Assembly: GCF_014904705.1 (NCBI RefSeq)
Contig: NZ_JACZCQ010000006.1
Coordinates: forward strand, 186,001-250,000
Direction of reading: 5' to 3'
DNA length: 64,000 bases
Source: Nisaea sediminum
GTDB taxonomy: Bacteria; Pseudomonadota; Alphaproteobacteria; Thalassobaculales; Thalassobaculaceae
Each line of letters starts with the position of its first letter. The first letter of the stretch is position 1. The notes under the pieces were generated by a model. The model made no database searches and was not told the origin of the DNA. It saw nothing but the letters and a program-made list of their open reading frames with translations. Positions 28,814 to 54,641 of the stretch are shown one piece after another. Both the position numbers and the translations under genes were made by a program.

Positions 28814-28986
28814 TCGGGCAGCTCCTTGAACAGATTCGCACCGGCCAGCTGCCGGTATCGAGCGATGAGGGCTATATCAGGCCCGCAATGTAGGGGCAAC
28901 CCGGCAATGGGCAAGTGGGCCGCATTGACAGGCTCTGGCCAGCCGCATTATCTGGCATTCCCGCCGCCTGCCGAAAGCCCGACCAG

Positions 28987-30168
28987 ATGCCCGTACACTC
29001 CTCCTATATCGCCGCCATGGGCGGGTCCGAAGCGGACGACGCCTGGGCCGTTCATTCCGAAGCCCGCAGACTTTCGCGCACCGGCGAAAAAGACCTCATC
29101 GTGCTTTCCGTAGGAGACCACGACTTCACCACGGACGAGCGCATCGTCGACGCCGCGGTGAAGTCCTTGCAGGCGGGCCATCACCACTACACGCCCAATA
29201 TCGGGCTCATGCCGTTGCGTGAGAAGATTGCCGCCTTCCACAGCAAACGGATCGGGGAGCCTGTCGGTGTGGAGAATGTGGCCGTGATCCCCGGGGCCCA
29301 GTGCGGCGTCTTCACCGCCGGTCTAGCAACGCTCAATCCGGGCGACCACGTGATCGCCTTCGATCCGATGTACGTCACCTATTATGGCGCTCTCATCGCC
29401 CGCGGCGCGACGCTGACCCAGGTGCCGCTGCGCCCGGAGAACGATTTCCGACCGGATATGGACGACATCCGCGCAGCGCTGCGCCCCGAAACGCGGGCCA
29501 TGGTCGTCAATTCCCCGAACAACCCGACCGGCGCCGTCTGGCCCCGAGAAACGATGGAAGCGATCGCCACGCTCTGCCGGGAGCGCGATCTTTGGCTCAT
29601 CTCGGACGAGGTCTACTGCACCATGACCTACGAGCAGCCGCATTTTTGCCCGCGCCTGATCGACGGCATGAAAGACCGCACCGTCTCGGTCTATTCCTTC
29701 TCGAAAAGTTTTGCGATGACCGGATGGCGCCTCGGCTGGGTCGTCGCCGCCCCGGAGACGATCAAGGCCGTGGAGCACGTCATGAGCGCCATGCTGTTCG
29801 GCTCACCGCCTTTCGTACAGGAAGCGGCGATGACCGCGCTGGACGAGGCGGAAGACACGGTCGACAATATTAGGAAACTCTACCGCCACCGCCGCGACCG
29901 GGTCTGCGACGCGCTCGCCTCCGTTCCGAAAGTGAAGCTGCGGAAACCCGATGCCGGCATGTTCCTGATGCTCGACATCCGCGAGACCGGCATGAACACG
30001 ATCGATTTCGCCTGGAAACTGCTGGAGGAGCAGAAGGTGTCCCTTCTGCCGGGAGAAGGCTTCGGCAAGATGCTCGCGGGCCATCTCCGCCTCAGCTACG
30101 GCGCCTCGGACGAGACGCTCGACGAAGCGGGGCGGCGGCTCTCGGCGTTTATCCAGCGGAATGGCTAG
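28987..30168 (+). CDS. PLP-dependent aminotransferase, class I/II
   Basis: A 393-residue protein from the ATG at 28987. The open frame extends to 28915, but the upstream part lacks family residues. Conserved motifs are HYTPNIG, NSPNNPTGAVW, SDEVY and the PLP lysine in SFSKSFAMTGWRLG (Lys240). The C-terminal Arg motif is LRLSYG. The substrate cannot be told from sequence; the family includes aspartate, histidinol phosphate and aromatic aminotransferases. It stands alone on this strand beside an AT-rich island. Confidence 0.92.
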   Translation: MPVHSSYIAAMGGSEADDAWAVHSEARRLSRTGEKDLIVLSVGDHDFTTDERIVDAAVKSLQAGHHHYTPNIGLMPLREKIAAFHSKRIGEPVGVENVAVIPGAQCGVFTAGLATLNPGDHVIAFDPMYVTYYGALIARGATLTQVPLRPENDFRPDMDDIRAALRPETRAMVVNSPNNPTGAVWPRETMEAIATLCRERDLWLISDEVYCTMTYEQPHFCPRLIDGMKDRTVSVYSFSKSFAMTGWRLGWVVAAPETIKAVEHVMSAMLFGSPPFVQEAAMTALDEAEDTVDNIRKLYRHRRDRVCDALASVPKVKLRKPDAGMFLMLDIRETGMNTIDFAWKLLEEQKVSLLPGEGFGKMLAGHLRLSYGASDETLDEAGRRLSAFIQRNG

Positions 30169-30480
30169 GGCAAAATCTAGCTATTTAGATCACCCGCCTC
30201 GCTATCTAACGATTGCAGAAATCGCTTTTAGCGAGCCCCCCGAAGAAATGAGATAGTCGTCGATTTAATGCCATTTTGAGAAAAATATATCCTCGGATTT
30301 GCAACTCACATTGCCCAACCGCCACAATATGAGGTGCGTCGGTTTAAGAACGCTACATATCTACGAATTTAAGTTGTCTCGCTAACACGAATTTGCATAG
30401 CCTCTATGCATAGTAAGTTCGATCCTCGACACCGTCGAAGAAAATAACATATAACTTAATTAATCAGCGAGTTAACGTTC
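30169..30480. other. AT-rich intergenic region upstream of the toxin-antitoxin-chaperone island
   Basis: About 310 bases with clearly lower GC than the flanks. It contains the symmetrical 7-base pair CTCGCTA/TAGCGAG near 30197-30236 and a perfect palindrome at 30394-30410. No ORF or RNA gene is visible. A promoter of the three-gene island must lie here, but I cannot place -35/-10 boxes reliably. Confidence 0.5.
30394..30410. promoter_or_regulatory. Perfect palindrome TGCATAG-CCT-CTATGCA, possible operator
   Basis: Seven-base arms TGCATAG and CTATGCA around CCT, about 70 bases before the toxin start. Antitoxins of this type bind palindromes at their own promoters, so this is the best operator candidate. 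Inference only. Confidence 0.55.
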
Positions 30481-30867
30481 GTGAATCAATCGGACTGCAT
30501 CGAGATCTCTAAAGGAGAAAAGCACAGCGTCTGGCTGACTAAGCAAGTGTCAAAAAACCTAGAAAAGGCATCACCTAAAGACAGGGCAAGATGTTTGAAA
30601 TATATGGGTTTTTTTGCGAATGATGGGCTTGAATATTTGCATCTCGACGACACCAAATTCAAGAAGCAGGGAGACTTTTCAAATGGGAAACCGGATGGAA
30701 AGAAAATCCCTGTATTCGCATTTAAAGCCTATCAGCTGCGGATCTATGGAAGTTTTCTCCCCGGCGGAGATTTCGTTGGCACAGAAATTGATACGGGAAA
30801 GAAGCAGGACCAAGCAAACAAATCTAAACTAAAAGCCGCGGCAAAAAAATTTGCCGCTCTACTATAA
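30481..30867 (+). CDS. Putative RelE/HigB-like toxin
   Basis: A 128-residue protein read from GTG at 30481, with no ATG start nearby. A basic helical N-terminal half (WLTKQVSKNLEKASPKDRARC) is followed by a strand/helix C-terminal half (IPVFAFKAYQLRIYGSF, then FVGTEIDTGKKQDQANKSK, then a Lys/Ala-rich helix). The strand-Arg-Ile-Tyr pattern and the small, basic composition fit RelE/HigB RNA-cleaving toxins. Catalytic residues cannot be fixed by eye. It precedes an HTH protein and a SecB-like gene and has atypical AT-rich codon usage. Confidence 0.6.
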   Translation: MNQSDCIEISKGEKHSVWLTKQVSKNLEKASPKDRARCLKYMGFFANDGLEYLHLDDTKFKKQGDFSNGKPDGKKIPVFAFKAYQLRIYGSFLPGGDFVGTEIDTGKKQDQANKSKLKAAAKKFAALL

Positions 30868-30885
30868 AAGCTCGGGAGTAGGGGA

Positions 30886-31362
30886 ATGTTCGGACCGAAA
30901 AATGACGAAGAAAAACTGATCTTCGCGGTGGAGGATTTTAAGGCTGAAATTCAGTATGAAATTTTGCGTGCAATGAACGCCGAAGGCCTGAATCAAAAGA
31001 CTCTTTCGAAGAAAATGGGGATTTCGGCTGCCCGTGTTTCCCAAATTCTTGACGATGAGGCCAACCTCACGACCGAGAATATCACCAAAGTCTTCTATGC
31101 AATGGGATATACGCCTACCTTCTCCGCACTTAAACAAAAAGCTGCCGCAGGGAATGCGCGCACCTCTAGTGAGAGCAAATGGCAATCTGACGTTATTGCT
31201 CGGGGCAATGAACCACGCGTCAAAGCGAAATCGGACTGTGATGTTCTTGAAAGGTTGATTGCGACCCTTTCCCAATCTCGAACCAGTCATAAGATGGAAA
31301 TGATTTCGAACGATAACGCGGCGGCGCGGCGAGAGACTGTGGAGGCCTCCGATGCCGCCTAA
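30886..31362 (+). CDS. XRE-type HTH antitoxin with long C-terminal extension
   Basis: A 158-residue protein. A Cro/CI-like HTH lies at residues about 35-58 (LNQKTLSKKMGISAARVSQILDD), preceded by a helix EIQYEILRAMNAEG. The part from about 80 to 158 is unusually long, poorly ordered and lacks another domain. In known TAC systems such a tail is the chaperone-addiction (ChAD) segment that makes the antitoxin depend on its SecB-like chaperone. It is 18 bases downstream of the toxin and overlaps the chaperone gene by 11 bases. Confidence 0.68.
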   Translation: MFGPKNDEEKLIFAVEDFKAEIQYEILRAMNAEGLNQKTLSKKMGISAARVSQILDDEANLTTENITKVFYAMGYTPTFSALKQKAAAGNARTSSESKWQSDVIARGNEPRVKAKSDCDVLERLIATLSQSRTSHKMEMISNDNAAARRETVEASDAA

Positions 31363-31822
31363 GAAAAAAGGCAGCGACAGTTTGGTAGCAGCAAAACCTG
31401 ATCATATTCAACAATATGATCAGGTCGTCGAGGCCGCACAATTAATTGACGTCAGACTAAATGGATTAACATTCAACGTTGATCCTGATTATTATCAATT
31501 TGAAAGAAATAATTTTGATAAAGTAAAATTTAGTTTCGAAGGAGGGTTTAATTTCACACATTTTGACAAAAACAGCGGAACCTTAGTCGGGGAAATAAAC
31601 TGGAAATGCGTCGCAAAGCACAGGAATAAAAATCTATTAAAAGTCGACGCCACCTACGTGATTGCATATGGAGATATACCACCGGTTTCAGATGATCCGG
31701 CGAAAGCTTTCCTTACGAGAGTTGGGAAATTTACATCCTATCCTTATTTTCGCACTGTCGTCTCTCAGTTATCTTGGAATGCTGAAGCAAATATCCCGAT
31801 ATTACCAGTGTTGAAAAAATAA
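31352..31822 (+). CDS. SecB-like chaperone of a toxin-antitoxin-chaperone module
   Basis: A 156-residue protein. After a basic N-terminus it shows SecB-like strands (VRLNGLTFNVD; KVKFSFEGGFNF; GEINWKCVAKH; KVDATYVIAYGD). The diagnostic C-terminal pattern is YPYFRTVVSQLSWNAEANIP, ending in PILPVLKK. This compares with the E. coli SecB segment FPYARECI...FPQLNLAPVNF (compared from memory). A strong Shine-Dalgarno, GGAGG at 31341-31345, sits six bases before the ATG, but lies inside the 10-base palindrome GGAGGCCTCC. The last gene of the island; assignment to the SecB fold is moderately confident. Confidence 0.68.
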   Translation: MPPKKKGSDSLVAAKPDHIQQYDQVVEAAQLIDVRLNGLTFNVDPDYYQFERNNFDKVKFSFEGGFNFTHFDKNSGTLVGEINWKCVAKHRNKNLLKVDATYVIAYGDIPPVSDDPAKAFLTRVGKFTSYPYFRTVVSQLSWNAEANIPILPVLKK

Positions 31823-31845
31823 ACTTTAAAATCACGGCTCTTAAA

Positions 31846-32322
31846 TCACTGGATAAACCGCTTCTCCATATCCATCGAAGTCGGGGCGTAGAAACCCGCA
31901 TGGGCCTGACGGCCTGTCTCGACGAAACCCAGGCGCTGGAAGAAGGAAATATTCTGCGAGAGAGCGAGCCGGACGCCGAGCGTGACCCGCACCGCACCCG
32001 TCTCACGAGCGTGACGTTCCACAACTTCGATCAGCCGCTTCGCAATCCCCCGCCCACGCGCCTCCGGATCGACGGAGAGCCGGTCTAGATAGACCGCATC
32101 CCCCTTCCGCGTCGCGAACACCGCACCGCGGAATTTCCCTACCTCCTCAGCCAGAAATAGCCGGTTTTTCTCCAGCCTCTTCGCAAGACTCTCGACGGTC
32201 TCGGAGAGCGCACCGCTTTCCGGCTTCAGAACCCCGCGATACTCCGCGAACGCCCTATGCACCAGAGCGACGATTTCCGCGAGATCGTCCCGCGCCGGGT
32301 CGTAGGGACGGATATCCATCAT
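31846..32322 (-). CDS. GNAT family N-acetyltransferase
   Basis: A 158-residue protein. The start at 32322 gives an ATGA overlap with the stop of the aminotransferase gene; a second ATG follows at 32319. The acetyl-CoA motif A appears as RLSVDPEARGRGIAKRLIEV, and the C-terminal FFQRLGF motif is intact. It is translationally coupled to the aminotransferase gene, so it may act on the same metabolite, but the substrate is unknown. Convergent with the island's last gene. Confidence 0.88.
   Translation of the reverse strand: MMDIRPYDPARDDLAEIVALVHRAFAEYRGVLKPESGALSETVESLAKRLEKNRLFLAEEVGKFRGAVFATRKGDAVYLDRLSVDPEARGRGIAKRLIEVVERHARETGAVRVTLGVRLALSQNISFFQRLGFVETGRQAHAGFYAPTSMDMEKRFIQ

Positions 32323-54564: not shown

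Positions 54565-54641
<77 letters not shown>

Follow-up and report, generated by a model that had tools for sequence, protein, structure and literature searches.

Does the low-GC island that lies between two host genes of Nisaea sediminum encode a complete toxin-antitoxin-chaperone (TAC) module? Few TAC systems are known from experiment, and they were recently shown to be phage-defence switches. The island is part of a stretch of 64,000 nucleotides, here called the window, and the original prediction described it as a probable TAC module, possibly of a divergent type, with a toxin of unclear class. We refer to its three genes as T (toxin), A (antitoxin) and C (chaperone), and all features are listed in Table 1. 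The three genes are read in the same direction between positions 30481 and 31822, with a gap of 18 bases between T and A and an overlap of 11 bases between A and C, and this predicted layout was found to be exact, coordinates included, when it was checked again. The predicted TAC module itself is upheld as well, since the gene order, its conservation, the SecB-like and toxin folds and the features of the antitoxin tail agree with each other. By every feature that sequence can test, the operon is a TAC system, which lies beyond the SecB profile and the named RelE/HigB profiles, and we put the probability that the island is a mobile TAC operon working by the mechanism proposed below at about 90%.

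Table 1. Features of the island and their positions in the window.
Feature	Positions	Strand	Basis or remark
Low-GC acquired island	30169..31845	.	GC contrast; flanks with other cargo in relatives
Perfect palindrome with 7-bp arms, TGCATAG-CCT-CTATGCA, possible second regulatory site	30394..30410	.	
Operator-like site ATAACATATAACTTAA	30444..30459	+	Matches the family palindrome TTAAGTTATAACTTAA at 13/16; its right half is intact and its left half degenerate
T, predicted RelE/HigB (BECR)-fold toxin, 128 aa, GTG start	30481..30867	+	AlphaFold2, Foldseek, Gp49 profile-profile comparison
A, XRE-type antitoxin, probable autorepressor, 158 aa	30886..31362	+	HTH_3 (PF01381), PDB HigA match
Long C-terminal tail of A, residues 80-158, candidate chaperone-addiction (ChAD) region	31123..31359	+	Conserved tail tryptophan
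ESKW in the tail of A (W99)	31171-31182	+	Candidate chaperone contact
C, SecB-like chaperone, 156 aa	31352..31822	+	AlphaFold2, Foldseek, family profile
ssrA-like Ala-Ala end of A, candidate ClpXP degron	31354..31359	+	[ALVI]A ends across the family

The GC content of the island is 0.38-0.50, compared with 0.61-0.67 in its flanks, which are an aminotransferase gene on the left (28915-30168, plus strand) and a GNAT-type gene on the minus strand that abuts position 31846 on the right. Both flanks are kept at 80-84% DNA identity in three genomes of the same genus (G001-G003), in which the island is absent. The lower GC and the conserved host genes on both sides are confirmed. The trio in the window is a horizontally acquired operon. 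At the same site, two of these genomes, both of sister species, harbor a RES toxin with an Xre/MbcA/ParS antitoxin (G002, L042:563-1530, G002:C4; G003, L043:374-1323, G003:C82), an assignment that comes from a Pfam run on the G002 copy, and the third (L041) has an isochorismatase-like ORF between the same aminotransferase and GNAT flanks. Because of the RES-Xre pair in two sister species, the site can be regarded as a turnover hotspot at which TA modules replace each other. No phage genes directly flank the copy in the window. There is also no tRNA gene close to the island, the sole one found being at 54565, and a tRNA integration site is therefore not supported.

The order T-A-C is present in the window and in 11 other divergent loci. 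In most of these loci A and C overlap by 4-11 bases, and in nearly all they at least adjoin. Since order and spacing recur in these 11 loci at protein identities of 24-45%, the ORF trio is not due to chance, and since the reading frame of T stays intact at this identity to its relatives, T is under selection. Scanning 84,980 species genomes with a degenerate pattern yielded 12 loci for C that could be confirmed; the trio is rare and patchily distributed. The hosts of the trio are Rhizobium deserti, Pelagibacterium luteolum, Rhizobium subbaraonis, Loktanella and another Rhodobacteraceae bacterium; it was also found in MAGs of Hyphomicrobiales and Myxococcales, in a pair of genomes of the same class and in two phage contigs. 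In both phage contigs (L012:3151-4414 and L013:3139-4414) the trio is part of the packaging operon, directly 3' of the gene for the large terminase subunit and between the terminase and portal genes, the portal being verified in L012. In another genome (G074) it sits beside the gene for the major head protein in a prophage-like locus, in two Rhizobium loci an integrase is encoded nearby, and a conjugative Sphingobium plasmid carries a version of the trio with a divergent first protein. Two weak matches (L007 in G093 and L010 in G028) were rejected, the trio being absent at both loci. Mesorhizobium sp. ES1-4 has a decayed remnant of the chaperone gene (L027:2800-3126), in which only the last ~42 residues align and the trio is not intact.

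C had been predicted to be SecB-like, and the C-terminal end noted at that time, SYPYFRTVVSQLSW...IPILPV, is indeed present. Used alone, C matched nothing in Pfam, NCBIfam, PADLOC, PHROG or the PDB sequences, the curated cut-off of PF02556 (SecB) was reached neither by C nor by any of 13 family members, and scans of viral contigs with single sequences found nothing. As single-sequence searches were empty, alignments of the distant loci were needed, and a family profile of C was built with 12 relatives from genomes and phage contigs. This profile retrieved one relevant PDB chain, Rv1957 (5mtw_C), although weakly (E 0.011), and aligned with it in register across the motifs A-x-L-x-x-I-R-L and YPYFR. 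The AlphaFold2 model of C (pLDDT 90.7, pTM 0.80) has the topology of SecB, H-E-H-E-E-E-long H, in which the four antiparallel strands and the C-terminal helix are long. Foldseek placed the TAC chaperone Rv1957 of Mycobacterium tuberculosis (5mtw) first, with an E of 4.5e-8 and a TM of 0.66-0.76, followed by the SecBs 1ozb, 1fx3 and 1qyn, those of Escherichia coli and Haemophilus influenzae among them. Direct comparison of C with canonical SecB by hhalign was not significant (E 0.024, probability 2%), and due to this weakness we used the fold comparison and a bridge via SecB-like proteins of Gordonia phages: the C family matches these with an E of 9.6e-12, and these in turn match canonical SecB with 2.4e-4, compared with 0.3 for unrelated-family controls. 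The SecB assignment thus holds for the predicted fold, which resembles Rv1957 and then SecB, but not for a single-sequence profile search, which finds no SecB. The SecB fold, together with the ability of TAC chaperones to substitute for SecB in export (PMC6377645), would also suit a second export chaperone, i.e., a SecB paralogue in an operon with an unrelated HTH regulator. We consider this the least probable of all readings, as C is linked to a toxin-fold gene, canonical SecB is encoded elsewhere in the same genome, and neither the low GC nor the patchy distribution over 12 confirmed loci would be expected for it.

T alone had no match in Pfam, NCBIfam, PADLOC, PHROGs or the PDB, and this includes PF05973 (Gp49) and the other named HigB/RelE families. 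Its AlphaFold2 model (pLDDT 89.6, pTM 0.84) is built of helices, then a four-stranded antiparallel sheet and a C-terminal helix, which is the fold of the RelE/HigB superfamily. Every credible PDB match of the model in Foldseek is a toxin of this superfamily, though at an E of only 1.8e-3 and a TM of ~0.55, with HigB of Streptococcus pneumoniae (6af4) as the best, and RelE2, HigB2 and the M. tuberculosis TAC toxin HigB1 (7nbu) are also found. In profile-profile comparison T matches Gp49 with an E of 7.4e-5, aligned over the helical half, and the Gp49 profile matches one of ten members of the T family (E 0.0023). The family has conserved K82, R87, Y89, E102, K107 and K108 as well as a basic C-terminal helix, all of which are retained in the window copy. 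Among these, the near-invariant K82, R87 and K107 may be equated by alignment with R68, R77 and K95, the catalytic residues of HigB-TAC (PMC9098466); E66 and the N73-loop features of Gp49-like HigB are absent from T in the alignment. On the basis of its predicted structure, T is identified as a putative divergent RelE/HigB (Gp49-like) toxin, which probably cuts mRNA. The idea of a divergent TAC type consequently stands, whereas the toxin class is no longer unclear; the suggested search against toxin families remained empty for T as a single sequence but leads to HigB/RelE toxins via the predicted fold. Two ordinary Gp49-family (PF05973) toxins are encoded elsewhere in the genome (G000:C6:330838-331104 and G000:C17:48800-49075).

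Three loci of a sphingomonad type (L002:2113-2523, L023:2049-2462 and L025:2113-2523) have a T-like first protein without equivalents of R87, K107 and K108, and this protein may either be an inactive toxin or serve another purpose. Such proteins, the occurrence of the cassette in phage late regions and in a prophage-like locus, and the fact that the window T is recognised by its fold only would all be in line with a phage-derived regulatory cassette of repressor and chaperone, in which T has lost its toxin activity. We give very little credence to this explanation for the island, because the window T retains the six conserved residues and the basic last helix, and because an ORF that is intact at 24-45% identity is under selection.

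The antitoxin A matches HTH_3 (PF01381) with an E of 2.7e-5, above the Pfam cut-off, and stays below the family cut-off of TIGR02607 (HigA). Among natural PDB chains it is matched best by HigA from the HigBA complex of S. pneumoniae (6af3_B), whose HigB is the best fold match of T. Matches to designed armadillo repeats in the PDB were rejected as low-complexity. A is thus an XRE-HTH protein with a long tail, as predicted. A tail tryptophan is present in 13 of the 14 XRE antitoxins of the family, L020 being the only exception, and 13 of 15 partner proteins, including one unrelated partner, have [ALVI]A ends, compared with 7.4% of 136 background ORFs; the nominal p is ~2e-13, ignoring shared ancestry. 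In M. tuberculosis HigA1 the chaperone buries W108 of the ChAD (PMC6377645), and Val-Ala at the very end of this antitoxin serves as the ClpX degron (PMC8165232). CmdA and other TAC antitoxins end with LAA (PMC11618068), and a ClpXP signal at the C-terminus of the antitoxin is an established rule for TAC systems (PMC8165232, PMC11618068). ClpX is encoded in the genome. The conserved tryptophan and the ssrA-like C-terminus across the family support the earlier assumption of a chaperone acting through the tail: the tail of A may bind C, and its C-terminus is a candidate ClpXP degron.

In two Sphingobium loci (L028:2195-3423 and L003:2207-3423) a C homologue is located beside a MarR-like protein of 249 aa that ends with FDEDLAA and has tail tryptophans, and there is no T gene. 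Here, an unrelated, MarR-like partner seems to have taken over the pairing of tail and chaperone. These loci could also be read in favor of a plain two-gene TA pair of the HigBA type, with the third gene unrelated or accessory and C a general SecB-fold chaperone that is not dedicated to A, and so could the frequent action of XRE antitoxins on their own and the position of C below PF02556. We regard such a pair as very improbable, even if less so than the other alternatives: C runs into or directly adjoins A at almost every locus, a canonical SecB is already encoded in the genome, the antitoxin tails carry TAC hallmarks, and the end and tail tryptophans of the MarR-like protein are what a dedicated tail-chaperone pairing predicts.

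Directly 5' of the toxin gene, 12 of 13 loci have a palindrome of the TTAAGTTATAACTTAA type with 12-16 matches out of 16, the copies in Rhizobium and Pelagibacterium being perfect or near-perfect. The operator-like site in Table 1 is the sole one of this type in the 64 kb of the window, and a score of at least 13/16 is reached in <1% of shuffles. The natural reading is that A would repress its own operon via this palindrome. The second palindrome in Table 1 is not conserved upstream of the toxin genes of relatives, and a scan for sigma-70 promoters gave sites no commoner than in shuffles and none upstream of T.

From gene order and conservation, folds, tail tryptophan, degron-like ends, operator motif and mobility we infer the following mechanism for the TAC operon. 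T would be toxic by entering the ribosomal A site and cleaving mRNA, and the N-terminal XRE half of A would bind and neutralise it. Binding of A to the palindrome just upstream of T would keep the operon repressed. C would form a tetramer that holds the tail of A at a chaperone-binding segment near ESKW (W99), aids the folding of A and shields the Ala-Ala degron at its end. When C is titrated away, as could happen if an infecting phage supplies a capsid or tail protein that binds it, A would be removed by ClpXP, T would be freed and translation would stop. In CmdTAC the trigger is a capsid protein (PMC11618068), and by analogy to the literature on CmdTAC and MqsRAC (PMC11618068, PMC9519451) phage defence is the most likely role of the operon, whereby the phage-borne copies suggest protection of the lysogen. 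A broader reading, which we put forward tentatively and with considerable doubt, is that the TAC family is mobile and that temperate phages carry copies in or beside head-gene operons to protect the lysogen, with C sensing the head proteins of competitors and the tail-chaperone module being exchangeable among DNA-binding partners of XRE and MarR-like type, some of which would lack an active toxin.

As toxin and chaperone give no profile match in the libraries tested, the family of the window operon is probably under-counted. The antitoxin tails of its relatives form a natural alignment that allows the chaperone contact (W) to be told apart from the degron (AA), and since phages themselves carry the system beside head genes, the trigger is directly testable.

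Among known systems, HigBAC of M. tuberculosis (Rv1955-Rv1956-Rv1957) shares with the window operon the order of toxin, tailed XRE antitoxin and SecB-like chaperone, the chaperone fold that is the best match of C, the RelE/HigB toxin fold, the tail tryptophan and a C-terminal degron of a hydrophobic residue and Ala. However, the identity in structural alignments is 18% for the chaperone and 18% for the toxin, family profiles fail to recognise the window sequences, the E66 and N73-loop features are missing from T, and the tail shares the W alone with the HigBAC ChAD, but not the R110/Y114 pair. Regarding the chaperone, earlier lists, as they are cited in PMC4257090, contain 33 TAC chaperones outside PF02556. 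The phage-defence system CmdTAC (PD-T4-9) of E. coli also has the tripartite order, a SecB-like chaperone and an antitoxin with a ClpXP signal (LAA). CmdT is an ADP-ribosyltransferase and CmdA consists of two N-terminal helices and a long unstructured region (PMC11618068), whereas the toxin in the window is RelE/HigB-like and the antitoxin is of the XRE type. S. pneumoniae HigBA (6af3/6af4), which is closest to T in fold and to A in sequence among natural PDB entries, differs in that the solved HigA chain has 97 aa and no long tail and that the complex has no chaperone, and from the Gp49-like toxins of PF05973 T is distinguished by not matching this family itself. The temperate Gordonia phages Azula (43-42-41, L082:283-1680), Suerte (39-38-37, L083:311-1710) and Horus (52-51, L080:1210-2234) contain an HTH and SecB-like pair between immunity repressor and integrase, with HTH proteins that end with ALAA, DAA or LAA and a 4-base overlap with the gene of a SecB-like "hypothetical protein". 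In Azula and Suerte, the XRE protein has the ESKW tail motif as in the window and an ALAA or DAA end, and a 176-aa protein with a RelE-like stretch, REYRVYF...KQTTQKIRN, is encoded upstream of the HTH gene; unlike the window operon, this cassette lies in the immunity locus, and its putative toxin has no Pfam match. The cassette appears to be a phage TAC, or a pair of antitoxin and chaperone, that has escaped annotation. The window operon, in turn, is a sequence-divergent relative of the known TAC kind.
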